Assembly (NCBI RefSeq): GCF_012222305.1
Contig: NZ_CP035730.1
Location: 558,001-622,000, forward strand
DNA from: Sulfolobus sp. S-194
Lineage (GTDB): Archaea; Thermoproteota; Thermoprotei_A; Sulfolobales; Sulfolobaceae
Direction: 5' to 3'
DNA: 64,000 bases
A program made the translations under genes and the position numbers. Numbering within the stretch: position 1 is the stretch's first letter; each line of letters opens with the position of its first letter. Below, in pieces: positions 30,541-52,923 of this stretch. The notes under the pieces were generated by a model. It saw only the letters and a program-made list of their open reading frames with translations, ran no database searches and was not told the origin of the DNA.

Positions 30541-31689
30541 AGCAGTTTACGGATTTCTCTTCCGTTTAAATAATTTTTTGATTCCTCCGCCTCCTTGATA
30601 AATTCTTTTTATCAACCTAGAGAGCCTTTTAGCTCCTAGATTTAAACCTAAGGAATACTTGAAGACCAAGACTACAAGCAAAGAAAAGGTCTTTAAGATA
30701 ATGAAACCGGTGTTCCTCAACCAGGTGAGGAAGGAACCCTTCTCCAAACCTAGAGCCTTTAACTCCCTGATTAACACCTCGATGTCCCAACGGTTCTCCC
30801 AAGTGGTTAAGATGTCCTCGGGAGAATCGTTGACGTTCGTTGAGAAGAAATACCTCCTCCCGTAACCCTTATAATCATCTATAACAAGTAACTTTATGGG
30901 AGTACCCAAGTATTCTACTAAGTACTCCCCTTGGGGGAACTCGCCAACGGGTACGGATCTGCCACCCTCGACGACTCGCGCGCTGGACTTGAGTTCCCCG
31001 ACGGTATCTTGTAGAAGAGTCTTAGAATTAACATACCAAGAGTCGAAGACCTTGCCCACAATGTTGAACTCCTTTTCAAGTCCCGGTAATATTTCCAAGT
31101 ATTCTTGTATTTTGGTCTTGAACTCAACTTCCTCTCCCCTCTCCCTTAACACCTCAACAACCTTTTGTGGTATATACGGTATTATTGAGACCGTATAAGT
31201 TTCGTTTGTTTTCAAGTCCTTTATTGTTATTATGAGGAGTTGTATTGTTGGTTCGTATCTCTTGTGTTCTTTGCAGTAGTATACTTGTGCTCCGTTTCTT
31301 GATACCGGTATCGCTCTCGCGTATTCTTTGTGGTCGTGTGTGTCGTCTATTATTAGTAGTACCGGGTGGTCTTTTACTATGTTTTTTACTGCTTTTACTA
31401 GGTTTGCGTTTGCTATCTTGTCTAGGTTTTTGAGTAGTGTCATGTAGTCCATGTTTATCTCTTGTGATATTTCGTATGCTCCCTTGCCTATTATTCCTCC
31501 TAGTAGTAGTCTTACTGCAGTATCTTTTCTTATGTTTTCTAGTGGGGCTAGTGCAGCATGTATTGCATCGTTTAAAGCTTGGTAATACGTATCGTTGCTG
31601 ATGTTTTTATTCACACGATATTTTGTTTGGTTAATTTTTAAAAAGTTTTCAAGCCTCCCTCAGTCTACAAGGATTTTCCAATAACTGCT
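30541..31689 (-). mobile_element. Intact insertion sequence (DDE, IS4-like), 1149 bp
   Basis: Boundaries come from a 9-bp direct repeat ATATGGGAT at 30532-30540 and 31690-31698, a target-site duplication. The element begins AGCAGTTTACGG and its other end, read inward, begins AGCAGTTATTGG, so the terminal inverted repeats share at least AGCAGTT and then diverge. One full-length transposase fills the element. The perfect duplication suggests recent insertion. Confidence 0.85.
30547..31614 (-). CDS. IS4-like DDE transposase
   Basis: A 355-residue transposase. The catalytic carboxylates are probably in 'LLIIDDTHDHKEYA', 'VGKVFDSWYVN' and the C-terminal 'WENRWDIEVLIRELKALGLEKG' (YREK-like region of IS4-type enzymes). 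The N-terminus is helical and DNA-binding-like; the tail is strongly basic. Codon use is richer in G and C than the surrounding genes, as usual for a recently arrived element. It ends 6 bases inside the left IS end. Confidence 0.85.
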   Translation of the reverse strand: MNKNISNDTYYQALNDAIHAALAPLENIRKDTAVRLLLGGIIGKGAYEISQEINMDYMTLLKNLDKIANANLVKAVKNIVKDHPVLLIIDDTHDHKEYARAIPVSRNGAQVYYCKEHKRYEPTIQLLIITIKDLKTNETYTVSIIPYIPQKVVEVLRERGEEVEFKTKIQEYLEILPGLEKEFNIVGKVFDSWYVNSKTLLQDTVGELKSSARVVEGGRSVPVGEFPQGEYLVEYLGTPIKLLVIDDYKGYGRRYFFSTNVNDSPEDILTTWENRWDIEVLIRELKALGLEKGSFLTWLRNTGFIILKTFSLLVVLVFKYSLGLNLGAKRLSRLIKRIYQGGGGIKKLFKRKRNP

Positions 31690-32534: not shown

Positions 32535-33212
32535 AATTTTATTTACGTAGGTACATTCTTAAAAAGGGAAAAGTTGCCCCTTATTTTTATCTAGTTTATA
32601 TTATGTCTTCTTATTAAGTTTATGTATTAATAGAGAAAGTGGAATATGTAAATAATAACTGATTTAATGGTATCAATAGGAGAACTATTAACTACTCTAT
32701 GAATAGTATAAAAATCTTTCCTTTCATCTCTAATGAATATTATTAACTGGAGAAATCTTCTTGTATAAAGATTCTGTCAAATCAAGTAACCCTCTATGGA
32801 TAGGATGTCGCAAATCACTCTTACCTTCTTGGGAGGAGAAGTAATTTATGATGAATAAAATATATTTCTGTAATACTAATAAATTTGGAAAACATTATCA
32901 ATAAGACAATAGAATATGAGTAAATCCTCAATAAGAAAACAGTAACGTTCTATCTCTTTCTGAGGGATATAGAGGTAAAGCACAAGAACAAAATTTCTTC
33001 TATTGTTTCAAACTCAAGACTGTTAGAGGTAGAGCATGTAGTATCTAGCCATATGATGATAAGAAAGAAGAAGTTAGAAAATTCGCTAGGAATTTATCTT
33101 TATAAAGTTCTATGAATCTCACAAGGATAGTTGTAAGGTTTATACACTGCTTTAGATATGGTGTTATTTAGGATAAGTTTTAGGAGCTCAAGTGATTAAA
33201 GATTAATCCCCC
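32535..33212. other. 680-bp degenerate stretch before the inverted-repeat element
   Basis: No intact gene. On the plus strand around 32960-33110 a broken frame gives 'GKAQEQNFFYCFKLKTVRGR' and 'YDDKKEEVRKFARNLSL', which looks like protein-coding sequence in decay. I cannot name the family. The rest is AT-rich. Confidence 0.35.
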
Positions 33213-34247
33213 TATACGGTAGACCCAAAATCACCTCCTTGAAAATAAATCTATAGTGTAAATAAGTGTTTTTAGTAGATTAGATGTAATTTCTGAGTTG
33301 AATAAATTAGGAAATAAAAGAATTATTAGTAATTTAAATTCTTGTCTCCTTATCTTTCTCTTGAGTATTGTGTGTAGGGAGTGGAGTGTAATGCTTAATA
33401 CGAAGTGAGGAAACAGGCTTTGTAGAGGTAGTGAAGGGGGAAATGTTTTTATATAAGAGGTCTCTATGGGACTCCTTATTTTATTGTACAGTTTTAACAC
33501 TTGTAGGTTAGTATTCCTGGTGAGGTAGTCAAGTGTCTTCATCCTTACCTTCTCTTTGTTATAGAAGTTCTGCTTGTTCGTCCTATGCTTCTTACTATAT
33601 GTAATTTCCGTCAAACTCTTTATATACCCTTATATTCACAACTGGGACTGGTATCATGTAGTTAAACTGTGATATGAGGTTGAGTACGTCTATAGAAATT
33701 GTGTTATTTTTTTGTCTTGAATCCTTTTGTAATGGTTTTATTATCTTGTTTTTGCTTGTTTATTTGTTGGATAAGGGCAAGTAAGGGTGTTTTTGTCATT
33801 TGTGGTTTTTTGTGAGTTTCTTTATTTTTTTGTTCTCTAGTTCTTCTATTTGTCTCTTGTATTATGTGTAGTCTGTTGTTTATCTCCTTTGTTTCCACTT
33901 TTGTTTTTTTGTGAGTTTTTTTATTACTTTTATTCTTTGTTTCTCTATTTGGTTTCTACTGTTTGTGATGTTGTGTTTGGCCTTGTTCTCTATGTGGTGG
34001 TTTAATAAGTATGTTGGTATTAGGGTTTTTCGCTGTCTCTTCTTCTTTCCCTTGAAGTTTAGTATGGGAAGTGATTTATATTTGTTGTTGGTGGGGGAGA
34101 GCTGGTGTTATTATCTTTCCTCTTCACGTGGTGATCTTCCTCACCTTAACTTTAATTTATTGAGCTCCTAATAGTTATAAATTCCGATATTTTTTATATT
34201 ATCTTGTAAGAGTTATTTTTGTAATATGATTTTGGGTCTACCGTATA
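33213..34247 (-). mobile_element. Decayed transposable element with 21-bp perfect terminal inverted repeats, 1035 bp
   Basis: The segment is bounded by a perfect 21-bp inverted repeat: TATACGGTAGACCCAAAATC plus A at 33213-33233 and its reverse complement at 34227-34247. A TA dinucleotide flanks both ends, which would fit a TA target duplication. Between the repeats, minus-strand frames give the broken transposase listed separately. Family assignment is uncertain. Confidence 0.8.
33231..34171 (-). pseudogene. Broken transposase inside the inverted-repeat element
   Basis: Minus-strand fragments run in order. A Lys/Asn-rich N-terminal region lies at about 33.9-34.17 kb, then 'MIPVPVVNIRVYKEFDGNYI', a stop, and a 127-codon C-terminal frame with 'KKHRTNKQNFYNKEKVRMKT' and 'YNKIRSPIETSYIKTF', the second resembling the catalytic Glu region of DDE transposases. 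Several stops separate the pieces, so the element cannot move by itself, although a relative could act on its intact ends. Confidence 0.6.
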
Positions 34248-34427
34248 ATGCAAAGTGAATCTAAAGGATCAATAATAGCAATATTAATTAACATTACGCT
34301 TAAGATCTGATCAAAAGGTTTATCACTAAATGTTACCATATTTTTCCAAACTTTTTAAATAAAGTTTGCAACTAATCCTTTTAAGAGAAAGATAAATTAG
34401 GGAGTGTTATAATCTTACATATTAGAA

Positions 34428-35303
34428 ATGAACTTAAATACACATATAGTATTTGCTTTAGCAGTAGGCTTAGTTTTATTTCACAATAACTTATTATTGG
34501 CAGTTGTAGTAGGCATAGGTGCGGCATTACCGGATTTAGATAGGGAATATGTCTTTACAAATAGAGCATTTTTTGCACGACATCAACTCCATAGAGCTCT
34601 TTTCCATAACGTGTTTTTCGGTATTGCGTTAACTCTTTTTAACCCTTATTTAGGACTAGGAATATTTTTGCACATGTTATTAGACATGCTTACTTCTCCT
34701 CCTGATAGGGGTATAGAACTCTTCTTCCCACTTGGAAGACTTATTAAGGAGTTTAAATTAGATTATGAAGGAAGAGTAAGAAAGAAAGGAGGATTAATGT
34801 GGTTACTAGAAGATCCTCTAACCCTAGTGAATAGGACGGCTGACAAGGGTTTAAGAGAAGTTAGTAAGATGCCCTGGTTACGAATTTATGGGCCTTTTAA
34901 GAATAGTAGATTAATTGACTGGACAATTTTTTATTCAAGTGTCATTTTTATTCAACTCCTTGAGATAAATCAGCTGTTGAATTGGTGGGTACAGTTTCTT
35001 TCCATAGTATTTCTGAAATATAATTTCATTACTCTAGGTATAATTCTCTTTTATGGTATAGGTGAGTTATGGAGAAGAAGGTTACAGTTCATGAGAGTAT
35101 CAAAGAACACTAAAATAGTTATTATTTCATTAATGACTTTAGGAGGGTTAATGATAGTATATCAAGGACTAGAAATGTTTAATCCTATCAAGCTCACATC
35201 TTATGAAATAAGAATGGTAGAATTAATTCTAATATCCTTAGCAATAGGATTCATTAGCAGTATTATTCACATGAAATGGAGGTTTAAAGAAATAGTCATG
35301 TAA
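34428..35303 (+). CDS. YdjM/DUF457-family membrane metal-dependent hydrolase-like protein
   Basis: A 291-residue membrane protein. The N-terminal half carries the family pattern: 'NTHIVFALAVGL' (His5), 'GAALPDLDREYVF' (Asp pair), 'HQLHRALFHNVFFG' and 'LGIFLHMLLDMLTSPPDRGIELFFPL', with histidines and aspartates able to bind metal. At least five further hydrophobic helices follow. Homologues occur in Sulfolobales chromosomes and plasmids/viruses as DUF1286; the physiological substrate is unknown. It stands alone downstream of the decayed transposable element. Confidence 0.75.
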   Translation: MNLNTHIVFALAVGLVLFHNNLLLAVVVGIGAALPDLDREYVFTNRAFFARHQLHRALFHNVFFGIALTLFNPYLGLGIFLHMLLDMLTSPPDRGIELFFPLGRLIKEFKLDYEGRVRKKGGLMWLLEDPLTLVNRTADKGLREVSKMPWLRIYGPFKNSRLIDWTIFYSSVIFIQLLEINQLLNWWVQFLSIVFLKYNFITLGIILFYGIGELWRRRLQFMRVSKNTKIVIISLMTLGGLMIVYQGLEMFNPIKLTSYEIRMVELILISLAIGFISSIIHMKWRFKEIVM

Positions 35304-35790
35304 TAAGATTTTTTATCCTAGAATAAATATTTTTTCTAGATTCTTAAAATGTGTTTTGTGTTGTTTAAAAAGAGAAGTTTACCGTCTATTTATAAATAGA
35401 AATTCATCATGAGATTAAACTATCTCGTATAAATTATTAGCCTAAAATCAACGTTAGTAGTACTATTCTTGATGACGCTATAAAAACACGAAGTAAACAA
35501 GATTATCTATAAGGAACTAAACACAATATAGTATCATTATTAAGCTATTTATATTTCTATATATTTTCTACATATTGTAATACCTTAATTTAATATTTAT
35601 ACTTTTCTCACAGGAGAAACTGTTTAATAAATTTATATGTCAATGAGAGCTCTATGAAACACAAGATTGATTCTGTAATTCTGCTAATTTTTTAGAATAA
35701 CTACATTATTATCTAAGTTAAGTAAAAACAGTAATTAATAAGTAATATTAACAAGAGCTAAAAATAAAATATTATTTCCCTTAAAAGTTA
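35304..35790. other. 490-bp gap with a weak terminator-like inverted repeat
   Basis: CTAGAA at 35318-35323 pairs with TTCTAG at 35334-35339 around a T-rich loop just after the DUF457 gene, a weak terminator candidate. No coding frame or RNA gene is seen in the rest. Confidence 0.35.
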
Positions 35791-37449
35791 TTAGAAGCTC
35801 TTCCTATTAATATATATTAAAATACCTATGATGATAATAACGATTACTATTAAGATCATAAATAGTGAAGTGGGCAAGTTACTTGGAGTATTAGTAGTAA
35901 CACTACTAGGACTCGTTGATTTATAAATAGTTGATGACGAATTAAAAGTAATCAAGTACACGTTTATTTGAGTATTAGGCACTAGAGAAGAAGGATTAGT
36001 ATATGTTGATGTATATGCTAAGTAATAACACTCTGGTGAAACTTCTGCTACCTTAACTCCAACTAAGCTAATTATGTTAAGTAAATTAACATTAGAAATT
36101 TCTCCGAGATTATAGTAAAATTTCAGTGAGCCATTAGTATTAAGGAATATTACATAATAATCACTTGACTTGTTTCCTAGTAATATCATAGAATTGGATG
36201 TAAGCGACTGAGTAACCTCTAAATCGATAGTGTAGGAATAAACTTCATTATATATAACTGTTATATTACTCCCTACACTAGCTTCTTCTGGATTACTTAC
36301 TAGAATGAAATTATTAGAGATAAAAACATTAGTTAAGGGTTGAGTATAGTTAAATGAGATTATCTTGCCATTAGGAGTTGTTACGGTCTTTAAAATTGTT
36401 CTCTCTTTAAACGGTATCTTAGCTATAGTATATATTTTCCCGTTATTGTATTTTTGAATAACTATATACTTTATTGGAGTATTAATAGTAACTCCTTCAT
36501 ACTGTAGTACTATTCCATAAAGATTATTTTCAACATTTGCCAATCCTACAGTATTAGGGGAAATACTGAAGTTATATATTATATTACCATTATTAAGTGA
36601 AACCCCCAATAAACTTTCGTTTACTATAGTATAGCTGTTATCACTTTTTACTATCGTGTAGTTAATGAGATATAGTATATTTCCAATGATAGCGTAATTT
36701 GTAAGAGTACCAGAGAAAGATATATCGCCAAATAAAATTTGTGGATTATAGTAGCTTAGATTATATGATTTTGACCAGAGTACTTTTCCGGTAAGCGATA
36801 GTAAAGTAAGATTGTAGGGGATTATAAGATTTTGTGAAATTAAGGTGTCACTGACGTTATATGATAGTACGAGGATTCCCTCTGGCAATTGAAGTGCGAA
36901 AACTGGTAACTCGTCCTTAAAGACTATCTTTTCACTAGGAAGTAAGATCGTATAATTAGCGTGTGTGAAATTAGATGAATATTGAATAAGCGATAAGTAA
37001 GTTAAATTGTATGAAGGTGGTTCGTTCGTTAGTATCAAACCGTTAAGCGTGTAGTAATTTTGAAATTGAAGACCTGAAAAGTTATATATTATAGACTGAG
37101 GTCTCTTATTACTTGAACTTTCAACTATTACTATTAAATGGCCATTTAGTATCGTACTTATTATTCCCGAAACTGAACTTACAGTTGATGAGTACATCTG
37201 ATACTTCATTGAGGAGTTTATGAAATACACTATAAGTTCAGATTGAGTGTTTTGGGACGATGAGAGATTAACGTATTCTAGAGTCAATACTAATCCGTGA
37301 TCATAGGCAATTGCAGAAGTTATTTCAACTACCGGAAGCTGAAATTGTATGGATGATATTGGAGTAACTGAAGCATAATAAGTAGGAATTATTGTGCTAA
37401 TAGTAATAAATAATATAATTAAAATAGTGAGATTATATATTCTTCTCAT
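35791..37449 (-). CDS. Large secreted, membrane-anchored protein of unknown function
   Basis: A 552-residue protein with a signal-like N-terminus ('NLTILIILFITISTIIPTYYA') and a single C-terminal membrane helix followed by a short basic tail ('IYINRKSF'). The external part is rich in Asn, Ser, Thr and Tyr with many N-x-S/T sequons, typical of heavily glycosylated Sulfolobales surface proteins. Alternating strand-like segments suggest a beta-propeller or beta-sandwich, but I recognise no domain. A Ser/Thr/Pro-rich stretch precedes the anchor. Confidence 0.75.
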   Translation of the reverse strand: MRRIYNLTILIILFITISTIIPTYYASVTPISSIQFQLPVVEITSAIAYDHGLVLTLEYVNLSSSQNTQSELIVYFINSSMKYQMYSSTVSSVSGIISTILNGHLIVIVESSSNKRPQSIIYNFSGLQFQNYYTLNGLILTNEPPSYNLTYLSLIQYSSNFTHANYTILLPSEKIVFKDELPVFALQLPEGILVLSYNVSDTLISQNLIIPYNLTLLSLTGKVLWSKSYNLSYYNPQILFGDISFSGTLTNYAIIGNILYLINYTIVKSDNSYTIVNESLLGVSLNNGNIIYNFSISPNTVGLANVENNLYGIVLQYEGVTINTPIKYIVIQKYNNGKIYTIAKIPFKERTILKTVTTPNGKIISFNYTQPLTNVFISNNFILVSNPEEASVGSNITVIYNEVYSYTIDLEVTQSLTSNSMILLGNKSSDYYVIFLNTNGSLKFYYNLGEISNVNLLNIISLVGVKVAEVSPECYYLAYTSTYTNPSSLVPNTQINVYLITFNSSSTIYKSTSPSSVTTNTPSNLPTSLFMILIVIVIIIIGILIYINRKSF

Positions 37450-37601
37450 AATTATAGCTACTGTCCTAGATTTAAAAAATTTTTTATAAGAAACATTGCC
37501 ATAACAGAGCTATAAAATATTAATATTTATATGTTATTCAAATATTTTATCTAGAACTTGAATATTTTAAAAATCAAACTAGTGTAAATAAAACTTTAGC
37601 T

Positions 37602-37784
37602 TTATATGTTGAATCTTCCCATGATCAGATATATCTTCCTTTTATCGTCCACCTCAATTCTAACAGTTGCCAGCGGCTTTGTTTTTAGTGTTTCTCCGCT
37701 TTCTAACTCTATGTATATATTTTTAACTTCTATATCTATTGCATTATAACCTCTTTCTTTTAGTTTTTCACCTAATCTTATCAT
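37602..37784 (-). CDS. Small hypothetical protein
   Basis: A 60-residue frame with a regular charged/hydrophobic pattern ('GYNAIDIEVKNIYIELESGETLKTKPLATVRIEVDDK') suggesting a small beta-sheet protein. Its ATG overlaps the stop of the upstream 148-codon gene by 4 bases (ATGA), the classic coupling in archaeal operons, which supports a real gene. No domain recognised. Confidence 0.55.
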   Translation of the reverse strand: MIRLGEKLKERGYNAIDIEVKNIYIELESGETLKTKPLATVRIEVDDKRKIYLIMGRFNI

Positions 37785-38227
37785 AATTTTATTCTTGATC
37801 TCGCAATATTTATTATTTTCTCTGGATCTTGCACTTCAATACTAAAAGTTTTTCCATGAACAGTATATATTTCTAGTGCCTTTCTCGAAATTATTTTTCT
37901 GGTAATAGGTGATACTACTAGACTTTTATATCTAATATCAACATCTTTTATCTCATTCCAAGGTAGAACAATATGTCTAAATTTCTTTATTTCGATTTTA
38001 TCATCATAAATTATTATTTTTCCTTTATTAATAGCAATCACTGTCAATATTCCAAAGAATATTAAGCAGAAAAATGAAATATCAAAAACATATTCTAATA
38101 TTATAAATAGAGGATTTGGAATATTTCTTATTGATAAAAAAACTGGAATTAAAATAAATAGTGCGACACTTACTGAAAGATATAAAAAAGCTCTCTCATA
38201 TTTAACACCAGTTTCGTATATCTTCAA
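37781..38227 (-). CDS. Two-helix membrane protein with PH-like C-terminal domain
   Basis: A 148-residue protein with two hydrophobic helices (about residues 15-33 and 42-66), followed by a soluble domain 'GKIIIYDDKIEIKKFRHIVLPWNEIKDVDIRYKS' that has the strand pattern of bacterial PH (bPH2/DUF304) domains. It lies between the small gene and the secreted 352-residue gene on the same strand, 9 bases after the latter. Function unknown. Confidence 0.65.
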   Translation of the reverse strand: MKIYETGVKYERAFLYLSVSVALFILIPVFLSIRNIPNPLFIILEYVFDISFFCLIFFGILTVIAINKGKIIIYDDKIEIKKFRHIVLPWNEIKDVDIRYKSLVVSPITRKIISRKALEIYTVHGKTFSIEVQDPEKIINIARSRIKL

Positions 38228-38236
38228 TTACGTCAC

Positions 38237-39295
38237 CTAATAAAAAGAGGTGTTAGTAACATCAGTAATGTGATAATTTAATCCTAACCTTTGTGCAACT
38301 AGTGCAATCCCATTCTGAGTACCTATAACAAGATATTTTTCTCCTATTGATCCTCCGTATATATTGTTTGGTGGTGGATATAAGCCTGCCATAAATCCAT
38401 AGTCTTCAGATACATTAATTGACTGCGCATAGTATAAGCTAGTATTCGTACCATTAACATAAAAGTTAAACAGAGCAGCAAAATATGGATTATTTATTGT
38501 AAATTGGTATTGAGATCCTGTATGTACTTCAATTCCTGCAGAGGGCAAGACTGTGTAAACTTTAGTAGATACTGAATTTATACTTAGATTTGCAGCACTA
38601 ACGTTTGTCCACGGCCAAATTAAGCCTAAAAAGTAAGTAGCTATTATCTCTTGCGAAGAAGAAAGATAATCTATAACTCCATTGTTAGTAACTCTAGCAA
38701 TTTTATCTCCATTCAGTTCTATAATCCATCCACTATTATGATAATATACTGTTTCATTATATGGACCGTTAGTGCTTATGTTCATTCCTCCATAAATAAT
38801 ATATATCACCGCATAGAACGGTGGATAATTATCTATAAACCATATGTTCAATACTGGAAATACACTACCGTTTGGTAACATCTCTACAGCGTCTTGTATC
38901 CACATCCAATTAAACTGCAATTCTACTGGAGGAGGTATCCAGAACCCTGGGAAATACAGGCTGACATTTAGATATCCCGAAATATTTACTGGAATATTCA
39001 ACATATAGGCTATTGCACAGTTAGAAGCATTTATATTAAATCCTGAATGCCAAACTACCGTGTAAAGATTATAACCTGTTTTTGTTGAATATCCTCCTAC
39101 TGCCCAGTCATAATTTGTAAAATTCCCATTAGTACTAGTCGATAAAATCTTATTATCAACTATAGGTAAAAGTAAAAATTTACTAAGCTTTGGCATATTA
39201 TTTACAGTAGGTATAGTCGAGGTGATTGAATATACTGATGATAATATTAATAGATTAACTATTATTATCGTGCTAATTAAAGAGATCTTTGACAT
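38237..39295 (-). CDS. Secreted protein of unknown function
   Basis: A 352-residue protein with an N-terminal signal ('ISTIIIVNLLILSSVYSI') and no C-terminal anchor. It is rich in Asn, Tyr, Ser and aromatic residues with many N-x-S/T sequons. Segments such as 'YDWAVGGYSTKTGYNLYTVVWHSGFNINASNCAIAYMLNIP' resemble secreted beta-rich proteins. I do not recognise a catalytic motif. It is the first gene of the minus-strand group and is divergent from the 42-residue peptide gene. Confidence 0.7.
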   Translation of the reverse strand: MSKISLISTIIIVNLLILSSVYSITSTIPTVNNMPKLSKFLLLPIVDNKILSTSTNGNFTNYDWAVGGYSTKTGYNLYTVVWHSGFNINASNCAIAYMLNIPVNISGYLNVSLYFPGFWIPPPVELQFNWMWIQDAVEMLPNGSVFPVLNIWFIDNYPPFYAVIYIIYGGMNISTNGPYNETVYYHNSGWIIELNGDKIARVTNNGVIDYLSSSQEIIATYFLGLIWPWTNVSAANLSINSVSTKVYTVLPSAGIEVHTGSQYQFTINNPYFAALFNFYVNGTNTSLYYAQSINVSEDYGFMAGLYPPPNNIYGGSIGEKYLVIGTQNGIALVAQRLGLNYHITDVTNTSFY

Positions 39296-39435
39296 TTATA
39301 AATTAGTAAGAAGAAGAAGTATTTAAAATTTTATGATCGAGATTTATATAGGAGAAAGATTAATATAGACATAGCATGATCATCATTATTTGAATAGAAT
39401 ATATATAGAAATAAAAAATATTATAATTTGTCACT

Positions 39436-39454
39436 GACTATGTTATACATAGTC
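39436..39454. promoter_or_regulatory. 19-bp dyad, possible operator
   Basis: GACTATG-TTATA-CATAGTC is a perfect 7-bp inverted repeat around an AT-rich spacer of 5 bp. The spacing fits binding by a dimeric HTH protein. The nearby zinc-ribbon/HTH gene at 39869 is one candidate binder. Alternatively the repeat could form a small hairpin in RNA. Function is inferred from symmetry only. Confidence 0.35.
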
Positions 39455-39601
39455 AAAAAGAGTATTAACATAATATTAAAAACACTATAATATATGGTAA
39501 AAGAAAGTATAATTATAAATATCTATATAAATATTATTGTATAACTTTACAGTGTATATCAAAATAATGATAACGGCATAGTTTCAGTTTTTTATAGAGT
39601 A

Positions 39602-39612
39602 ATATTTATATA
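39602..39612 (+). promoter_or_regulatory. TATA box of the 42-residue peptide gene
   Basis: ATATTTATATA is centred about 36 bases upstream of the peptide ATG (39643). A start site 26 bases downstream would fall near 39633, giving a leader of about 10 nt. Position and consensus only. Confidence 0.45.
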
Positions 39613-39642
39613 GTTTGTTGAAATAGAGAAAAATGACCAAAA

Positions 39643-39771
39643 ATGGCGGCAACAGCAGCAGTAGGTCTTGGTAATATACTACAACTTTTAGAGCAACTTT
39701 TAGATGCATTATTAGAACTCTTAATGGAGATAATAAACGCTCTAATAGGTGCACTATTAGGAGCACTTTAA
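39643..39771 (+). CDS. 42-residue hydrophobic acidic peptide
   Basis: The frame ATG 39643 to TAA 39771 encodes an Ala/Gly-rich start ('MAATAAVGLGNI') followed by a very Leu-rich helix ('LQLLEQLLDALLELLMEI') and a 'LIGALLGAL' end. Acidic residues fall at positions 17, 21, 25 and 29, exactly four apart, making one acidic stripe on an otherwise greasy helix. There is no Lys, Arg or Cys. A TATA box is well placed. It resembles leaderless amphipathic peptides in pattern (pore-forming or self-assembling), but no family is recognised. A 13-codon frame from ATG 39633 overlaps it out of frame. Confidence 0.6.
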   Translation: MAATAAVGLGNILQLLEQLLDALLELLMEIINALIGALLGAL

Positions 39772-39868
39772 AATCTGAACTAAGATATATATTATTTTTT
39801 TAGTTATTTTCTTGTTTCTTCTTATACTTATTACAAAAATTTATATGCAATTGATGATAATTTATAGT

Positions 39869-40138
39869 ATGGCAATTAGATGTATTTATTGTGGTTCAAC
39901 AGATGTCATAAAACACGGTAAAACTAGGACCGGTAAACAATTGTATTATTGCAAAACATGTAATAAATATTGGGTTAAGGGGGGCATTTTCCACAGATAT
40001 CCTAAGGAAGTTAAGGATATGATAGTTAGAATAATACTAGAAGGGAAGTCAGTTAAAGAAGTATCAAAGGAATTCAATATACCAGTGACAACTATCTATA
40101 AGTGGCTAAAGGAGGTAAAAATTAATGAAAATAATTAA
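39869..40138 (+). CDS. Zinc-ribbon/HTH small protein (InsA-like)
   Basis: An 89-residue protein: a zinc ribbon 'CIYCGSTDVIKHGKT...YYCKTC' (residues 5-36), then a homeodomain-like HTH 'EGKSVKEVSKEFNIPVTTIYKWLKEV'. This pair occurs at the start of IS1/IS630-type transposases and in stand-alone regulators. ATG 39869 is used because ATTTATATG at 39839-39847 is about 26-30 bases upstream (leaderless) and the family starts just before the first Cys. No downstream transposase part follows; instead it overlaps the next gene by 14 bases, which favours a regulator. Confidence 0.7.
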   Translation: MAIRCIYCGSTDVIKHGKTRTGKQLYYCKTCNKYWVKGGIFHRYPKEVKDMIVRIILEGKSVKEVSKEFNIPVTTIYKWLKEVKINENN

Positions 40139-40931
40139 AAAGGGGCTTATATTTCTCTTTATACTCTTGATGAGTATATCTATTTATATAACAGTTTCTT
40201 ATTCACATCCTTATTACCTGGTTTATCAAGTAAACCTAACAATAAATTCATTTATTACAGAAAATTATAACGCTACCATTATATTATATCTGAAAAATTA
40301 TTCCTCTACTGAGATAATATTCTCTGTAGTGGGAATCGGGAATCTCTACTCGTTTGCTCAAAAAACTAATTTCAACATATCAAAGGTTATCTTAATGGAA
40401 GCCTATAACGGTACTTACATAAAACCTATAGGGTTAGGTGAAGGTTTCCCTATGCTTAATAGTACTGAACTAAAATCCTTGCGCTCTGAGAAATTTTTCG
40501 GTAACAATAACGGTACTTACTACAATGTGAGTAAAGAAGTAATAGATATAAAAGGCATGAAATATCAAACATACAAGATTTACGGAAATAGGATCGAAGT
40601 GGGTGAGTCTGGATCTATATGCATATTCGTGAATCAGTCTAATGGTATGGTAATTAAACTCGTAGAGAATGCCAGCAGTTTTTTGGGGTCAATATTCATT
40701 ACAGTGACGTTAGTAAAAGCTTCATTACCATCTTATCTATTACAAAGTAATATAGTATCAACAACTACTGTAATGGCTTTTACAGAAACTTCTTCTATTA
40801 AAACTACATCTAGCTCTCCTTCTCACGAGTCCAATAATTTATCTTCTAATATTCTAGTATTCATTACATTTGTTGTGATTGCTATAGTAATAATCCTTGT
40901 GATATTATTGAAGAAAAGTGAATTTAAATGA
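40125..40931 (+). CDS. Secreted, C-terminally anchored protein
   Basis: A 268-residue protein: N-terminal signal ('KGLIFLFILLMSISIYITVSY'), an Asn/Ser/Tyr-rich exterior domain with several N-x-S/T sequons, a Ser/Thr-rich stalk ('TETSSIKTTSSSPSHES'), then a membrane helix and the basic end 'LLKKSEFK'. No recognised domain. It overlaps the zinc-ribbon/HTH gene and lies 59 bases before the ABC ATPase, so it may be the sensor or effector of this transporter locus. Confidence 0.7.
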   Translation: MKIIKKGLIFLFILLMSISIYITVSYSHPYYLVYQVNLTINSFITENYNATIILYLKNYSSTEIIFSVVGIGNLYSFAQKTNFNISKVILMEAYNGTYIKPIGLGEGFPMLNSTELKSLRSEKFFGNNNGTYYNVSKEVIDIKGMKYQTYKIYGNRIEVGESGSICIFVNQSNGMVIKLVENASSFLGSIFITVTLVKASLPSYLLQSNIVSTTTVMAFTETSSIKTTSSSPSHESNNLSSNILVFITFVVIAIVIILVILLKKSEFK

Positions 40932-40990
40932 CGTAAAGGCAAAAATTTGAGATACAATTTTTATAAGTTAACTCATAATATAAAAATAAG

Positions 40991-41905
40991 ATGAGTATAG
41001 TCATAGAGCATGTGAGCAAATCTTATGGTAAAATTAAGGTATTGAAGGACATTAATATTCCAATAAAGGAGCCTGGTTGTTACGCAATACTTGGCCCTAA
41101 TGGTGCTGGGAAAACTACATTATTCAGGGTGATTTCTACCTTAGTAGTACCAGATAATGGTACAGTAAAGATTAATGGCTATGATGTATTTAAGGAACGT
41201 GAGAAGGCATTAAAAGATGTGGGTTTTTTGGTCAGTGTGCCAGAGCCTCCGGATTTTCTCACAGTTAAAGAATTTATAGCTTTTTCAGCAAGTCTTAGGG
41301 GTAAAACAGCGGATATACAAAAGTTAAATAAAATGCTTGATCTTCCCCCTTTAAATCAAAAATGTGGTAAGCTTTCAAAAGGCCAAAAAAGAAGAACATA
41401 TTTAGCTGCATTATTAGCACAAGACCCTAAAATTCTAGTACTTGATGAACCTACAGATGGATTAGATCCAGTAGAGATGATAAAGGTAAAAGATGTGATA
41501 AAAGAGATAAAAAAAGATAAGATAATCCTTTATTCTTCACATATACTTTCAGAAGTATCTGATATTTGTGATTATGTGTACATTATGGATAAGGGAAAAA
41601 TAATTTACAATGGTTCCATATATAATATAAAAAGAATGTTTAGACCCAAAAATGTTAAGGTTGAATTTAACTATGAGATCCCATTAGATGATATCAAACG
41701 AACTTTAGGAACTCTAGTTACTGATGTAAGACAAGATGGTAAAATGACTTTTGAACTAGAATTTGATGGTACTTCAATGACTAGAAGGGAAATACTTAGA
41801 AGATTGGTGGATAGGTATGAAGTAAGGAATTTTTATGATGTTGAGACTAATTTGGAAGAAGCATTTGTAAAAATTTTGAGAGTGTTTGGGAATGGGGGCG
41901 TTTAA
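40991..41905 (+). CDS. ABC transporter ATP-binding protein (ABC-2 exporter type)
   Basis: A 304-residue ATPase of the CcmA/drug-export class: Walker A 'GPNGAGKTT', signature 'LSKGQKRR' (Lys replaces the usual Gly), Walker B 'ILVLDEPTDGLDP', switch 'SSHILSE', and a C-terminal domain of about 80 residues. A TATA-like TTTTTATAAG at 40958-40967 is about 28 bases before the ATG, so a transcript can start here. The permease gene overlaps its end. Confidence 0.93.
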   Translation: MSIVIEHVSKSYGKIKVLKDINIPIKEPGCYAILGPNGAGKTTLFRVISTLVVPDNGTVKINGYDVFKEREKALKDVGFLVSVPEPPDFLTVKEFIAFSASLRGKTADIQKLNKMLDLPPLNQKCGKLSKGQKRRTYLAALLAQDPKILVLDEPTDGLDPVEMIKVKDVIKEIKKDKIILYSSHILSEVSDICDYVYIMDKGKIIYNGSIYNIKRMFRPKNVKVEFNYEIPLDDIKRTLGTLVTDVRQDGKMTFELEFDGTSMTRREILRRLVDRYEVRNFYDVETNLEEAFVKILRVFGNGGV

Positions 41906-42647
41906 TAATATATATAAATATAATTTACTTTTCTATATTAGAACCAAAAGATTTTCGGTTATGTTGCCTTTGGCTCTAGTTATATCACTTATTAATACCA
42001 TGCTTATAGAGGCCGGAATAGTTCAAAAACCTACTTCTGTATACTTATTTACTGAAGCTAATTTAGCATACTCTGAAATTCTTTTCATAATTCTCAGCTC
42101 TATGTTTGCAGGAGATCTTATCTCTAGGGATTTCTCTAAAGAGGGATTATATATGCTAACACAACCTATAAGCAGAGAAAAGATATTTTTAGCAAAGTAT
42201 ATTTCAGCGGTCACTATAACACTAATAGTAGTCTTAGTTTATATGCTTGGAGTTTTCGGAACTTCTATAGTCCTTTATAATTATTTAATTCCTAACTGGT
42301 ACGAAATAGTGTACGTCTCCTTCTTAGCGGTATTATCATTATTATCTTTTGTATCACTTTTCAGTGCAATTGTAAAAAGTCCCACAATTTCAATAACTGT
42401 TTCTATATTTATTTTGTTAATAATATTCCCTCTAATACAACAGATAATGGAAGACCTTCATAAGACTCCTTTCTTCGTCATAACTTATGCACTGCAGATT
42501 ATATTAGCTCTAGCCCAACCAAATATAACACCGTTTATCCCATCACCATCTTTAAGCGAAAGTATTGAGATATTTGTAAGCTACCTAATATTTGGAGTTA
42601 TAGTAAGTATGATAACTTATAAAAAAAGACAGCTAAGTGATGTTTGA
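41892..42647 (+). CDS. ABC-2 type permease
   Basis: A 251-residue membrane protein with about six hydrophobic helices and the pattern 'GDLISRDFSKEGLYMLTQPISREKIFLAKYISA', typical of ABC-2 permeases (short charged loop before the second helix). ATG 41892 is used; an in-frame TTG at 41886 would add two residues. It overlaps the ATPase gene by 14 bases. Together they probably export a lipid-like, drug-like or peptide substrate. Confidence 0.88.
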   Translation: MGAFNNIYKYNLLFYIRTKRFSVMLPLALVISLINTMLIEAGIVQKPTSVYLFTEANLAYSEILFIILSSMFAGDLISRDFSKEGLYMLTQPISREKIFLAKYISAVTITLIVVLVYMLGVFGTSIVLYNYLIPNWYEIVYVSFLAVLSLLSFVSLFSAIVKSPTISITVSIFILLIIFPLIQQIMEDLHKTPFFVITYALQIILALAQPNITPFIPSPSLSESIEIFVSYLIFGVIVSMITYKKRQLSDV

Positions 42648-42703
42648 GCATCAGATGAAGTTAAGACTAAGCTTATTAATATCTCAATACTAACTAGTAT
42701 TTG

Positions 42704-42889
42704 ATGACAATCGATATTTCAAAAATATTAGGAGCTAAGGGTGTAAATGCTGAGAGCCTATCAGGTATTATGAAGATTACAATAGAGACTGATAAGGGAG
42801 AGAAAATTATACTGGCTAACCCTAATGTATCTAAGGTATCATTTCTTGGCTTTGACATACTAGTGGTCATAGAAGAAAGAAAAGATTAA
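42704..42889 (+). CDS. Small hypothetical protein of the ABC locus
   Basis: A 61-residue frame 'MTIDISKILGAKGVNAESLSGIMKITIETDKGEKI...', with a beta-rich pattern. It vaguely recalls the 60-residue product at 37602-37784 (a 'KG-NA' turn, then 'I-IE---GE'). It has no signal and no recognised domain. It lies between two ABC units on the same strand, which is the main support for it being real. Confidence 0.45.
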   Translation: MTIDISKILGAKGVNAESLSGIMKITIETDKGEKIILANPNVSKVSFLGFDILVVIEERKD

Positions 42890-42965
42890 AATAGGCAAAA
42901 ATCATATTTATACATTCTTTTTGCTTATGATTAAACTTATAATAATATAAAAACTATAAAAGCAT

Positions 42966-45437
42966 ATGAGAAAGAGAAATCAATTACTGTTAGTAGTATT
43001 TCTATTTCTTATCTCATCTCTATTGCTTTCTACTTTCGCACTAGCCTATAATTCTTCGCAAAGTTTTACTGCAACAGCTAAATGGGGATATAATGTAGTA
43101 GCATCAGGAATGACAGAAGTACCTATAGAAATTACAGTAACCAATGATGGGCCAAATGTTGTAGGAAATGTAACCGTTTACGCAACTCCGTCATATCCAT
43201 TCTGTGGTTATATAAACTCCGTTTTCGTATCTGATTGGCAACCAGGTCAATCAATCACCTTAGTAGGTTACCTTAATATAAGTCCTTCAGCATCCTTAGG
43301 AGATTATAATATTCAAGTTTATGTTACACCACTCAATTACGCAAATTACGTTTACTATGAAACTACGGCCGAGGTTGCTATTAATGGCTATGTGAATATC
43401 TCTGTACAGTCTGCCTTAATATCTAACAATCACTTAAGCATTAATCTTATAAATACAGGTAATGTTGAAAGCGGACCAGTCTATATATATTTCTATAATA
43501 CATCATTAGTGAGATTTCTTGAGAGTTACGAGATTTTGCCCTCAATTCAACCTGAGCAATCAATACAAGTTGTAATTCCCATAGAATTAGATGCTCCTCC
43601 ACAGCCAGGTATATATATTGTACCTATGAAATTCCTGTATATGAGAGGAGTACATGAGATTCAAACTCCTGTTATTATACCATCTAATAATTCCATAGTA
43701 TTCTCACTAACGGGGAACTGGGTAGGAAAATATGCTACAATAACCTTAATTTACTCCTCTCCTTATAACGTTAGTGCTGTAAGAATTATAGGGCAATTAC
43801 CTCTAGGCGTTACTAACTTCACTGGAGGTTCTGAAATCTACATAACAGTACCACTAACTTCACTATCTGGAATGGTTAAGTTTAATATTTACTTGGACTC
43901 CAACAGTTCTCCTTATCTAATTCCAGTAGAACTTGAGTGGTTCACAAACAAGGGTATAATAACACAGAAAGGATACTTAAGTCTATATATTTATAATCAG
44001 CCTAACATTGAAGTGGTTTCAATTGAGGGCATACTTTACGCTGGATTAGAGGATAATATAACAATTACAGTTAAGAATATAGGAAATGCACCAGCCTATA
44101 ACTTAACTGCTAGCGAGAACACGATACCTATAATTTCGTCCACGACTTTACCGTATCTAGAACCAGGCAAGGAGGGTAAAATAACTATTCTAGTATATAC
44201 TCCATTTTCAGAAGAAGGAAAGGGTATTACAACAAATATCACAATATCTTATATGACATTACAAGGTATAGTAAATGTAACTTCAATCTCCGAAACTTTT
44301 ACAGTATACCAGCCAATAGTGCCTATTGTAGTTTCAGATCCTGGTTTAGATTTGATCGCTGGTATTGATAATACGATTAATTTAACATTTACTAACAACT
44401 TAGGTGAGACAATATATGACCTTGTAATTAACATAACCCCCTCTGAAGGAAGTATAATAGGTAGTTCTCAAATTTATATTAAATCCTTACTCGTTGGAGA
44501 GAGTATAAGTATTCCAATAGTCTTAAACGTACCTTCAACTGCTTCTAATACGTTGAGTATTACAGTTAGTATGTCCTATTTAACCCCTTCAGGAACTGAA
44601 AGTAGTTATACCACAACGTTAAATTATCAAGTCGAATCCTTAAAAGAAATATCCCAAGAATTTGAGGTTAGTATATCCCCTTCAGTCGTAGAATACGGTA
44701 ATCTCTCTTCAGTGCAAATAGCTATATCGAGCTTCTTTAACTCACCCATACTAGATGCCGTCTTAGAAGTCTCATCTCCTAACGGATATGTATCACCTTC
44801 TATACTTCCAATTCAAGAAATAAGTCCTTTTACTACTGTCACTAAAGATGTAAATATAGAATTCGCACCACCCTCTAACGGAAGTTCACTTCTTGAACCA
44901 ATTAATATTACGCTCAGGTTCTATTATGAGGGTGCATTTTTAAACTTCACTAGAGAACTAAAAATACTTGCCATAGGCAAACCACTTCTATTAATATCTG
45001 GACTCTCCTATGCTGTGGTTGAAGGGAATAACAGCGAGGTCACAACTAGTGTTAGCTTTCTTGTAGGCGATAGTGGATCCGCTAGTATATCTTCAGTTAC
45101 AATAGTCCCGTTACCCCCTTCTGGAATAACCATTATTGAGCCTTCAGTTATTGGTGTATCAGATCTAAAGCCCTCTGAAAGTCAAGCTGTATCATTTACT
45201 ATAGTAGGTAAACCAGGAAATTATACTATTCCACTGCATATTATATATACTACACCTTTAGGACAAGAAGTAACTGAGACGTATAATATTCAAATTACTT
45301 TAACTCCTCCATCAACATCTACAACAACCTCAACAGTCTCTCCAGTAAATATATTGCTCCAGAACCCCTTATTCCCAGTAGTTATTGTCTTAATTGTTAT
45401 AATAATTTTGCTAGTGAGAAAGGTGGAGAAGAGGTGA
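42966..45437 (+). CDS. Large secreted protein with CARDB/NEW3-like repeats, membrane anchored
   Basis: An 823-residue protein: signal peptide ('LLLVVFLFLISSLLLSTFALA'-type), at least five repeats of an Ig-like strand pattern ('ITVTNDGPNVVGNVTVYA', 'ITVKNIGNAPAYNLTAS', 'LTFTNNLGETIYDLVINI'), a Pro/Ser/Thr linker and a C-terminal helix with basic tail 'LLVRKVEKR'. This matches archaeal COG1361/CARDB-type surface proteins. It overlaps the FtsX-like permease gene by 4 bases, so it is the extracellular partner of that ABC complex. Confidence 0.8.
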   Translation: MRKRNQLLLVVFLFLISSLLLSTFALAYNSSQSFTATAKWGYNVVASGMTEVPIEITVTNDGPNVVGNVTVYATPSYPFCGYINSVFVSDWQPGQSITLVGYLNISPSASLGDYNIQVYVTPLNYANYVYYETTAEVAINGYVNISVQSALISNNHLSINLINTGNVESGPVYIYFYNTSLVRFLESYEILPSIQPEQSIQVVIPIELDAPPQPGIYIVPMKFLYMRGVHEIQTPVIIPSNNSIVFSLTGNWVGKYATITLIYSSPYNVSAVRIIGQLPLGVTNFTGGSEIYITVPLTSLSGMVKFNIYLDSNSSPYLIPVELEWFTNKGIITQKGYLSLYIYNQPNIEVVSIEGILYAGLEDNITITVKNIGNAPAYNLTASENTIPIISSTTLPYLEPGKEGKITILVYTPFSEEGKGITTNITISYMTLQGIVNVTSISETFTVYQPIVPIVVSDPGLDLIAGIDNTINLTFTNNLGETIYDLVINITPSEGSIIGSSQIYIKSLLVGESISIPIVLNVPSTASNTLSITVSMSYLTPSGTESSYTTTLNYQVESLKEISQEFEVSISPSVVEYGNLSSVQIAISSFFNSPILDAVLEVSSPNGYVSPSILPIQEISPFTTVTKDVNIEFAPPSNGSSLLEPINITLRFYYEGAFLNFTRELKILAIGKPLLLISGLSYAVVEGNNSEVTTSVSFLVGDSGSASISSVTIVPLPPSGITIIEPSVIGVSDLKPSESQAVSFTIVGKPGNYTIPLHIIYTTPLGQEVTETYNIQITLTPPSTSTTTSTVSPVNILLQNPLFPVVIVLIVIIILLVRKVEKR

Positions 45438-46660
45438 AAGTTAAAGATTTGTTCTGGGTTGCTTTACTGAGTTTTTTCAGTAACAAAGTAGCATCAGTAC
45501 TCATTATTGTGGTAATAGCAATAGCCACGGGGGTCTCAGTTACTCTTGTTTCACAAACTCAAGGCCTCATAAGTACTGTAGAACAAGATGTCTTATATTT
45601 AGGTCCTAATACTGTACTTGTGGAGAATTCAGGAAATGTAAACGTAATTAACGGCCACGAAATACAGCTCAACTCAACACTAGTAAGCTATTTCAGTAAA
45701 ATACCTCATGTTAAGGAAGTATACCCGGTAGTATGCACAACTGGAACCATAGACTTGTCTGGCTACAAGAGGAATATAACTATAGTAGGGATTTCAAATT
45801 ACAGTATTTTAGGAGACTACAATGTAGTGTACGGAAAGCTAGCTACATCAGCAAATGCTGGAATAATGCTTCCCTACGCACTTTTTAAATCCTTTGACTT
45901 AGTTGGAAAAGAAGCAGAGCTGAACATCTCTGGACATATCATTAAACTTAGGGTTACAGGGATAATAAATTACTCTACTAGACAACTGTTAGACTTCACA
46001 ATTTCTTCTAAAGATGTTGTGATTCCGCTCTCGATTTTGCAAGATTCTCTTGGCATTAGCCAGTACAAGTTAGTTGTAATTAAAGTAGATAACCCGGTTT
46101 ATGATAACTTCGTTACATCATATATAAAGACCTTCTTAGGCCCAACAGTTATAGTTCAAGGGGTAGGATTTCACGGAATATCTGTCGCAATCTATTACAG
46201 TAACTTACTTATAATATCTGCAGAACAATTAGCACAAGCATATCTTAAAAGTATAAACATTAATCAGGGACTTTCTCAATTCATCAGCATAATTGCAGAT
46301 GTGATATCAATAGCCTCAATAACTTTAGTCCTAACACTCTCAACTTTCAGTCAAATAAAAGATATTGGAATATTTAGGACTTTAGGGATGAAAAGAAAGG
46401 ATATAGTAGTAGAGAAGCTTATAGAAGCACTTTACGGTGGATTAATAGGCTCACTTATAGGAACAGGAATGAGCATCTTATTTGGTGGATATATTCATGT
46501 GTTCTCATCTGCCTTTAGTTACACACCAATTTATTCGCCAAAGGAATTAGTAGAGCTATTTTCTCTGGGAGTTATTACGGCACTGCTTGGAAGTATATAT
46601 CCTATTGTATGGATAATTAAGTTGACTCCAGTAGAAACCATAAGGAGGGGTGAGATGTGA
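45434..46660 (+). CDS. MacB/FtsX-family permease 1
   Basis: A 408-residue permease with the four-helix FtsX layout: one N-terminal helix (about residues 10-35), an extracellular domain of about 230 residues, and three C-terminal helices preceded by 'IKDIGIFRTLGMKRKDIVVEKLIEALYGG', the conserved loop that contacts the ATPase. The GTG start overlaps the previous stop (GTGA). Such proteins transmit force rather than move substrates in a channel. Confidence 0.9.
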   Translation: MKVKDLFWVALLSFFSNKVASVLIIVVIAIATGVSVTLVSQTQGLISTVEQDVLYLGPNTVLVENSGNVNVINGHEIQLNSTLVSYFSKIPHVKEVYPVVCTTGTIDLSGYKRNITIVGISNYSILGDYNVVYGKLATSANAGIMLPYALFKSFDLVGKEAELNISGHIIKLRVTGIINYSTRQLLDFTISSKDVVIPLSILQDSLGISQYKLVVIKVDNPVYDNFVTSYIKTFLGPTVIVQGVGFHGISVAIYYSNLLIISAEQLAQAYLKSININQGLSQFISIIADVISIASITLVLTLSTFSQIKDIGIFRTLGMKRKDIVVEKLIEALYGGLIGSLIGTGMSILFGGYIHVFSSAFSYTPIYSPKELVELFSLGVITALLGSIYPIVWIIKLTPVETIRRGEM

Positions 46661-47790
46661 AGTTCAGTGATATATTTGAGCTAACTATAACCGATATATC
46701 ATCAAGGTGGCTATACTCTCTTTTAATTATATTTATGCTCTTAATAGGAGTAAGCAGTGCATTTATAGCAATATCACAATCTCAAGGCATAGTAAGTAAA
46801 GAAGAACAACTGTTTGAGTTCCTCCGTCCTAACCTTTTGATAGTTTATCCCAAATCCCCAATTACAAACTCACAAGTAAATGTGGCCAAGTCGATGAAAT
46901 ATGTAAGTCAAGTTTATCCTGTAATAAATCAAAGTATAGAAGTGGAAGTTAATGCCCAGAACTATACTTTTTACTTGTTGGGTATTGATAACATTAGTAT
47001 AATCACATCCTACACTCTTGTAGCTGGAACTACATTTGACTATTCTAGTTTAGTAATACCTTCATCAGCATCTCTTCATCTACCTCCTGGTACATTGGTT
47101 AAGGTCTACATAAACAAAGACGCCAAATATACCTATATAAGTGGGGTTATATCTTATTCTCATACAGTATTTCAGAGGATAGGCGTTTCATCCTCAACCC
47201 TCTTCCCTTCATATAATTGCCTTTTTACCTCACTTCAATACGCTGAGAAGCTCACTGGAGATAAAAATTATACTTTCTTAATAGTACTAACACAATCTCC
47301 TCTTTACAATTCAAACGTTACTAATGAGATACTTTCAGTGTTTCCTAATGCAACAATTAAGTCTCTTGGCGTTTCCTCTACAGCTATAGCGAGACAATAT
47401 GCATCTTTCACAGCATATTTAGTATCCCTAAGTATAATAGCCATACTCACTTCTATAATAACTAACGGTAGTGTAACTTCAATAAGCTTTAACAGAAGAT
47501 TAAGGGAAATAGGAGTGTTGATGGCTTTGGGAATGAAGAGGGATCATATAGCATTACTGTATTTGCTTGAAAGTTTTATACTCGGGGCGGTAGGCGGTAT
47601 TGCGGGTCTAGTTGCAGGTTATTACATTACCGAAAATATAATGCTTACAAAGACTGTTATTTACACGCCAGTTTACTATCCAATTCAGTTAGTAGAGCTA
47701 GTTGTTTTAAGTGTATTAGCCTCAAATATAGGTAGTATTTATCCTATATTTAGAGTATTTAAGTTAACACCATCGGAGGTGATGAGATGA
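46657..47790 (+). CDS. MacB/FtsX-family permease 2
   Basis: A 377-residue paralogue of the preceding gene with the same layout: an N-terminal helix, an extracellular domain, then 'LREIGVLMALGMKRDHIALLYLLESFILG' and two further helices. The GTG start overlaps the preceding stop by 4 bases. The two permeases probably form a heterodimer served by the downstream ATPase. Confidence 0.9.
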   Translation: MKFSDIFELTITDISSRWLYSLLIIFMLLIGVSSAFIAISQSQGIVSKEEQLFEFLRPNLLIVYPKSPITNSQVNVAKSMKYVSQVYPVINQSIEVEVNAQNYTFYLLGIDNISIITSYTLVAGTTFDYSSLVIPSSASLHLPPGTLVKVYINKDAKYTYISGVISYSHTVFQRIGVSSSTLFPSYNCLFTSLQYAEKLTGDKNYTFLIVLTQSPLYNSNVTNEILSVFPNATIKSLGVSSTAIARQYASFTAYLVSLSIIAILTSIITNGSVTSISFNRRLREIGVLMALGMKRDHIALLYLLESFILGAVGGIAGLVAGYYITENIMLTKTVIYTPVYYPIQLVELVVLSVLASNIGSIYPIFRVFKLTPSEVMR

Positions 47791-48476
47791 AACACACTGT
47801 TCAACTTATAGATGTAAGTAAGGTATATAAGTCTGGGGGCAATGAATGGGTCGCGCTAAGAGACGTTAATTTATATGTTGAAGAAGGAGAGTTCATAGCC
47901 CTAGTTGGACCCTCAGGTTCTGGAAAGACTACAATGTTGAACATTATTGGCTTAATGGATTCTCCTACAGAAGGTCATGTAATTCTTGAGGGTAAGGATG
48001 TAACTTACTTAAGTGAGAAAGAGAAGTCAGAGTTTAGGAATAAATATATTGGCTATGTCTTTCAGTCCTATAACCTCATTTCCTTTTTAACAGTGTATCA
48101 GAATGTGGAACTACCTCTAGTTATTTCTGGGATACCAAAGAAGGAGAGGGAAAAGATTGTTGAGGAAGTATTGAACTTAGTTCCTGGAATTTATGAGCTT
48201 AGGAATAAAAAACCAATACAACTCTCTGGAGGACAACAACAGAGGGTTGCAATAGCAAGGGCTCTAGTAACTAAACCAAAGTTAATCCTCGCTGACGAAC
48301 CTACTGCAAACTTAGATGTGAATACTGGAAAGGCTATAGTCGATCTATTCAAAAAGATAAAGGATGAGATGGGAATAACCATAGTTATGGCTACACATGA
48401 TTTAGAGATGCTGAAAAACTGTGATAGAATAGTTTACATAAGAGACGGGAAAATTGAAAGAATTGAGGACAAGTAG
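47787..48476 (+). CDS. LolD/MacB-type ABC ATPase
   Basis: A 229-residue ATPase: Walker A 'GPSGSGKTT', signature 'LSGGQQQRVAIARAL', Walker B 'LILADEPTANLD', and 'VMATHDLEML'. These are the features of ATPases paired with FtsX-like permeases. The ATG overlaps the permease stop (ATGA). It closes a four-gene unit: surface protein, two permeases, ATPase. Confidence 0.94.
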   Translation: MKHTVQLIDVSKVYKSGGNEWVALRDVNLYVEEGEFIALVGPSGSGKTTMLNIIGLMDSPTEGHVILEGKDVTYLSEKEKSEFRNKYIGYVFQSYNLISFLTVYQNVELPLVISGIPKKEREKIVEEVLNLVPGIYELRNKKPIQLSGGQQQRVAIARALVTKPKLILADEPTANLDVNTGKAIVDLFKKIKDEMGITIVMATHDLEMLKNCDRIVYIRDGKIERIEDK

Positions 48477-49078
48477 TAGCTTAATAATTGGTCAGTAATA
48501 TGTGTCAAGAAAATCTTATTGAATCAACCAAAGATTTTTTAAGTCTTAAAGTTATTCAAATCACTTCTATGAGTATTTTAACTTTAATCTATTATTATAA
48601 TAATTACTATAGTAGTCTAGGATATTTCATTACCATAAAAAATCATAATATTTTATCATAAATTAATAAATAGTTTTAATTTACTCCATCTCTTTTATTG
48701 CTTATCATAGAAAACTTTTCAGCTAATAAGGCACTTTTTCCATATACATTTTTAACGTAACGTGAAAATACGACGATTTTCTAAAGTGCTAATAGTGTTC
48801 TTGCTGAAGTATGTAAGAATGTGTATGAGGCTACTATAATAACTTGGAGGTAATATATGGATTGGCGTAGGATGAACAATAATTCCCTACTCACATAAGC
48901 TTAACTAATTTCCATGGCAATTGATAGTCTAACTTTAATGCAGGTATGTATATAATCTTAGTATTGGTAATTTATTACTAGTAATATAATTAAGGATGGT
49001 CTACTTGTGTTTGCTAACAAATGATATAATTACAGGTAATGGGAAGAAAATGATTTATTAAATATAAGCTTAATATAT
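48477..49078. other. 600-bp gap before the second IS
   Basis: AT-rich, no intact frame. Around 48.79-48.86 kb a short broken frame ('VLAEVCKNVYEATIITW') may be residue of a former gene. The last 10 bases (49069-49078) are the left target-site duplication of the following IS. Confidence 0.35.

Positions 49079-52832: not shown

Positions 52833-52923
<91 letters not shown>

Follow-up and report, generated by a model that had tools for sequence, protein, structure and literature searches.

Conserved amphipathic-helix peptides encoded beside an ABC-2 transporter in Sulfolobaceae

To our knowledge, a peptide accompanied by dedicated export or self-protection machinery of the kind considered here is known only from bacteria. 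The staphylococcal phenol-soluble modulins (PSMs) are peptides of about 20–45 amino acids, and the leaderless bacteriocins are cationic. PSMs bind the repressor PmtR and so induce their own exporter, PmtABCD, and this exporter protects the producer too (PMC5080381); they drive the release of membrane vesicles (PMC6247081). The leaderless bacteriocins are saposin-like multi-helix peptides (PMC6795431). For the Sulfolobaceae, the only antagonistic factors that our literature search met with are the 20–22 kDa sulfolobicins and a virus-borne toxin (PMC5733018; PMC8628083), and sulfolobicin production has been reported for S. tokodaii 7 (PMC5733018).

The locus described here lies in a window of 64,000 nucleotides, positions 558001–622000 of the 2,789,526-bp single-contig chromosome of a member of the Sulfolobaceae, a Sulfurisphaera species. 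An open reading frame on the forward strand at 39643–39771, which starts with ATG at 39643 and closes with TAA at 39771, encodes the 42-residue Leu-rich peptide MAATAAVGLGNILQLLEQLLDALLELLMEIINALIGALLGAL. The original prediction, made from the DNA letters, had placed acidic residues at positions 17, 21, 25 and 29 of a peptide free of basic residues and cysteine. The composition agrees exactly: these residues are Glu17, Asp21, Glu25 and Glu29, and Lys, Arg, His and Cys are all missing. The frame is conserved in other genera and is a genuine gene. When 1038 ORFs of 30–60 amino acids from nine loci were filtered for hydrophobic, amphipathic products free of Lys, Arg and Cys, four passed, all of them members of this peptide family; the same short-ORF filter found no second peptide gene within the window's own cluster.

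A search with the single sequence found 98% identity in the nearest relative of the window's genome (G115, inferred to be Sulfurisphaera ohwakuensis DSM 12421), 95% identity over 38 residues in another genus (G090, probably Stygiolobus) and weaker matches in four further genomes. A profile built from ten aligned peptides and run on 31 Sulfolobaceae genomes located ten peptides in seven of them: the window's genome (G000), G115, G090, G011 and G113, together with G114 (two copies) and G096 (three copies). True members score E-values of 8e-17 to 5e-9 and the background 0.15 or worse, which leaves a gap from 4.6e-9 to 0.15. A lack of conservation at the amino-acid level, with synonymous changes not favoured, had been named beforehand as an outcome that would refute the peptide, and the opposite is found. 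The coding sequences of G000 and G090 differ by 12 synonymous and three nonsynonymous changes (pS 0.39, pN 0.034), and those of G011 and one G096 copy give pS 0.75 and pN 0.11. The dN/dS of about 0.06 points to purifying selection on the peptide. Its pS is below that of every neighbouring gene (0.62–0.90) and the intergenic DNA upstream is partly conserved, so that additional constraint at the promoter or RNA level is likely.

In the eight-member main alignment Leu9, Gln14, Leu15, Glu17, Gln18, Leu19, Leu20, Leu24, Leu26, Leu27 and Leu34 are invariant, and the conserved core reads QLxEQLL. The acidic i,i+4 stripe, originally put forward as the defining trait, is retained in the two nearest relatives only. 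Elsewhere Asp21 is replaced by Asn or Gln, Glu25 by Gly or Ser and Glu29 by Ser, Thr or Val, and Glu17 is the sole residue of the stripe to survive in every main-subfamily member. Given these replacements, it is a polar rather than an acidic stripe that is conserved: the family signature is a strongly hydrophobic helix that bears a single polar stripe, and acidity is a trait of the window's branch. The proposed amphipathic helix with a hydrophobic remainder is borne out in all nine distinct peptides, in which the helical moment, taken at 100 degrees, is higher than in shuffled sequences (p<=0.0005) and the best helical angle is 98–100 degrees. Family members are 37–46 residues long and most have a net charge of -1 to -4, with 0 in one, on a single helical stripe. 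No signal sequence is apparent by inspection; the N-terminus carries no basic residue and the helix core begins near it. A second, more divergent subfamily accompanies the first within these clusters (L054, 13407–13523, and L057, 8258–8398), one member being nearly Gly and Leu only and the other 46 residues long with a Ser/Gln stripe. The two subfamilies possibly constitute a two-peptide system.

A TATA-like element, TTTATATA, is positioned at 39605–39612 on the forward strand, 38 nt before the start codon, with a predicted short 5' leader. The TATA box that had been proposed is therefore present, and it is kept in the two closest relatives (conserved in G115 and reading TTATATAG in G090), but with a single-site shuffle p of about 0.09 in AT-rich DNA it is not significant alone. 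A run of seven T residues at 39795–39801 on the same strand, 24 nt past the stop codon, is a putative archaeal terminator; runs of 5–8 T follow all ten family members within about 50 nt of the stop. The arrangement is consistent with a short mRNA of the peptide gene's own. We did not accept a single TATA box or T run as proof of transcription, since for most members no such element reaches significance by itself in AT-rich DNA.

The next gene on the forward strand (39869–40138) encodes a stand-alone protein of 89 residues with an HTH and an IS1/IS1595-type zinc ribbon, the latter scoring above the NCBIfam cut-off. It adjoins the peptide gene in five or six clusters, being intact in five and at a contig edge in the sixth, and is missing in G114. 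The zinc ribbon without a transposase domain, together with purifying selection (dN/dS 0.06–0.08), gives the protein the look of a domesticated transposase, and it is probably a transposase N-terminus that now serves as a regulator. The expectation that related genomes would hold the peptide beside this same HTH gene is thus borne out, yet the peptide is most closely tied to two genes further downstream, those of protein F and the ABC permease.

Protein F (268 residues, 40125–40931, forward strand) has a predicted membrane helix at each terminus and a beta-rich extracytoplasmic domain. At full length it occurs solely in the seven peptide genomes (E<1e-89), other matches being weak, partial and 9e-9 or worse. 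Its structural model is of medium confidence (pLDDT 72), and the best matches include LolA-type and lipovitellin/ApoB lipid-binding folds with TM-scores of just 0.18–0.33, a lead that weakly suggests a LolA-like protein. It is followed on the same strand by an ABC ATPase (ABC_tran, 40991–41905), which family profiles liken to DrrA, GldA and lantibiotic-protection proteins, and by an ABC-2 type permease of 251 residues (41892–42647). The closest solved relatives of the ATPase in the PDB are ABCA lipid transporters, and its profile matches do not separate export from immunity or lipid transport.

Divergently oriented on the reverse strand at 38237–39295, and present in five of the seven clusters, is a gene for a predicted secreted protein of 352 residues, protein D. 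It belongs to no known family: the five D proteins gave no match in Pfam even at E 10, and a PDB search was empty. A motif seemed to resemble thermopsin, but assignment to peptidase A5 was abandoned since both searches were blank. An AlphaFold model (pLDDT 38) was too poor to use.

Further genes adjoin individual clusters. At 42966–48476 the window encodes a CARDB-domain secreted protein, two FtsX-like permeases and a LolD/MacB-like ATPase, a LolCDE-like set (J-K-L) whose association with the cluster is conserved in just three genomes. In G114 a pro-kumamolisin-type (S53) acid protease gene lies between those of F and the ATPase (L057, 10425–12221). A third peptide copy is placed directly 5' of genes for two pilin-like membrane proteins of about 175 and 600–624 residues (L054, 5364–7770; L055, 515–2867), and comparable gene pairs border the cluster in G011 and, in part, in G090.

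The order peptide–HTH–F–ATPase–permease is kept in G000, G115, G090 and G011, and likewise in G096 with extra peptides. The G113 cluster is split across contigs, and G114 retains the peptides, F, ATPase and permease. In G096 three divergent paralogues occur within a single cluster, and in G114 two do. The permease profile matches exactly the seven peptide genomes and none other of the 31. The chance of hitting the same seven is 1/C(31,7)=3.8e-7 per gene, a figure that overstates independence since the genomes are related. In each of four genera some species carry all of the set and others lack it entirely (G078, G059, G110 and G066 are without it), so the set was repeatedly gained or lost as a unit. 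Peptide, permease and F are functionally linked, a linkage which does not of itself make the peptide the transported substrate.

The 17.7-kb segment carrying the cluster (32753–50448) is present in the window's genome and in G115. In G078, which we take to be S. tokodaii 7, the flanks (88–90% identity) are about 58 bp apart at the same chromosomal site. Because the segment is missing at that site, the cluster either forms an accessory island or has been lost from G078. Neither an integrase nor a tRNA was seen at the ends of the segment. Two insertion-element transposase genes are found near the cluster (30547–31614 and 49129–50103), the first of which is missing at the matching G078 site. Further along, ARAGORN reports a tRNA-Phe at 52832–52923 with the anticodon AAA, unusual for archaea and perhaps the result of a misplaced intron.

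Beyond these genomes, no family in Pfam or NCBIfam, PSM families included, matched the peptide above cut-off, and tblastn against phage and plasmid collections gave no match at E 10. Pattern scans of IMG/VR and GTDB contigs returned candidates, none a confirmed relative. Profile matches outside the family in a 398-genome sample of the phylum (E 6e-4 to 6e-3) lay inside or antisense to other genes or were not peptide-like. As these proved spurious, the family appears to be confined to Sulfolobaceae. Weak matches in G004, G010, G033 and G072 were parts of unrelated frames. The peptide profile resembles a designed cross-alpha amyloid peptide (E 0.22) and the surfactant protein latherin (E 1.9) at chance level only.

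Our analysis leans, by a little more than an even chance, to the idea that the ABC-2 transporter encoded nearby is dedicated to the leaderless amphipathic-helix peptide as its substrate, for export, self-protection or both. We infer that this might operate as follows. A very hydrophobic peptide would be produced from its own short transcript, and the transporter (ATPase 40991–41905, permease 41892–42647) would export it or extrude it from the producer's membrane. Membrane-anchored protein F would probably shield the hydrophobic peptide outside the membrane or pass it on in the fashion of LolA, and the small zinc-ribbon/HTH protein would probably control the cluster. At an external pH of 2–3 the acidic side chains would be protonated, rendering the peptide fully hydrophobic and able to insert into or perturb archaeal membranes. 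At the near-neutral pH inside, the stripe would be charged and the producer better protected. This pH switch, argued from chemistry, would apply mainly to the acidic-stripe branch. The likeliest use of the peptide would be competition with related cells, the alternative being a surfactant or vesicle-forming role.

A secreted peptide is favoured, although not decisively, by the diversity of paralogues per cluster, the separate transcription signals and the all-or-none distribution. The multiplicity of paralogues resembles that of multi-peptide toxin or modulin loci. Antimicrobial peptides are mostly cationic, and the acidic or neutral character of this family counts against its reading as a weapon. 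More tentatively, as a possibility to which we give less than an even chance, the locus may represent the first archaeal counterpart of the modulins and leaderless bacteriocins. It would comprise acid-activated peptides, uncharged outside the cell, together with an ABC-2 transporter reserved for them and a LolA-like carrier anchored in the membrane. The whole would be borne on an accessory island that is either complete or absent, and would serve warfare or membrane remodelling at pH 2–3 and about 80 C.

The perfect co-occurrence of the peptide with permease and F would also fit an accessory subunit or regulator of the transporter, a membrane-associated helix retained in the producer, and bacteria are known to have small helical proteins that attach to transporters. 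We consider this unlikely, though with a real chance of being correct: one permease needs no three different subunits, as the up to three divergent copies per cluster would imply, the peptide gene is not part of the permease operon and has a T-run terminator to itself, and one G096 copy heads a pilin-like gene pair instead. The association with pilin-like genes, seen for the third G096 copy and for the G113 copy, could rather indicate a component of the cell surface (a coat, vesicles or biofilm) that is exported by the ABC system, self-assembles and acts as structure or surfactant, not as a weapon. The many secreted and membrane-anchored proteins of the cluster fit such a role, as does the promotion of membrane vesicle release by PSMs (PMC6247081). 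The weak profile likeness to the cross-alpha amyloid design and latherin points the same way but scores at chance level, and the patchy all-or-none spread within genera is more readily expected of an accessory trait used in competition than of a structural necessity. We judge this reading to be unlikely.

Size, hydrophobicity and an isolated short transcription unit would also fit an intracellular membrane toxin restrained by antisense RNA or by neighbouring genes, as in type I toxin–antitoxin modules. A lasting tie to a transporter and F is no feature of such modules, and the peptide is strongly amphipathic, not a plain transmembrane helix; we regard this as quite improbable. That AT-rich DNA has left so short an intergenic ORF open by chance has next to no probability left, and is already refuted by in-frame conservation across seven genomes of four genera at that low dN/dS and by a composition unique among the 1038 short ORFs.

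With a transporter inherited alongside it, a conserved family of micro-proteins would give access to an archaeal system of peptide secretion or competition that can be tested directly. If our preferred reading, with the peptide as transporter substrate, is true, external acidity instead of positive charge can render a peptide membrane-active. Profile searches of unannotated short ORFs beside ABC-2 genes can, moreover, recover real archaeal peptide families.

Membership of the PSM, leaderless-bacteriocin or sulfolobicin families is unsupported by sequence, and the likeness is one of architecture only. Like the staphylococcal PSM/Pmt/PmtR system, the family consists of leaderless amphipathic-helical peptides with several paralogues (PMC5080381; PMC6247081). 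PSMs have a dedicated ABC exporter and a linked HTH regulator, to which the ABC-2 genes and the zinc-ribbon HTH protein may correspond here. The archaeal peptide has no sequence similarity to PSMs, its locus has one permease and one ATPase in place of PmtABCD and a zinc-ribbon HTH rather than a GntR regulator, and here the transporter is clustered with the peptide and the extra protein F.

The class II leaderless bacteriocins (aureocin A53/A70, lacticin Q and capidermicin) share the absence of a leader, amphipathic helices, a transporter and regulator cluster, and multi-peptide loci (PMC6795431), whereas the window's peptide is a single Leu-rich helix and acidic or neutral. The sulfolobicins SulA and SulB likewise come from Sulfolobaceae and are membrane- or vesicle-associated antimicrobials, as the window's peptide may be; they are proteins of about 20–22 kDa as against a peptide of about 4 kDa (42 residues), and the producer S. 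tokodaii 7, taken as G078, is without the peptide cluster. In LolA–LolCDE lipoprotein trafficking the cargo differs from the peptide proposed here, there is no outer membrane in the present case, and F matches LolA weakly by fold. Nevertheless, both pair an ABC system with a beta-rich protein that possibly binds hydrophobic cargo, and the LolCDE/MacB-like set J-K-L lies downstream of the cluster in three genomes.
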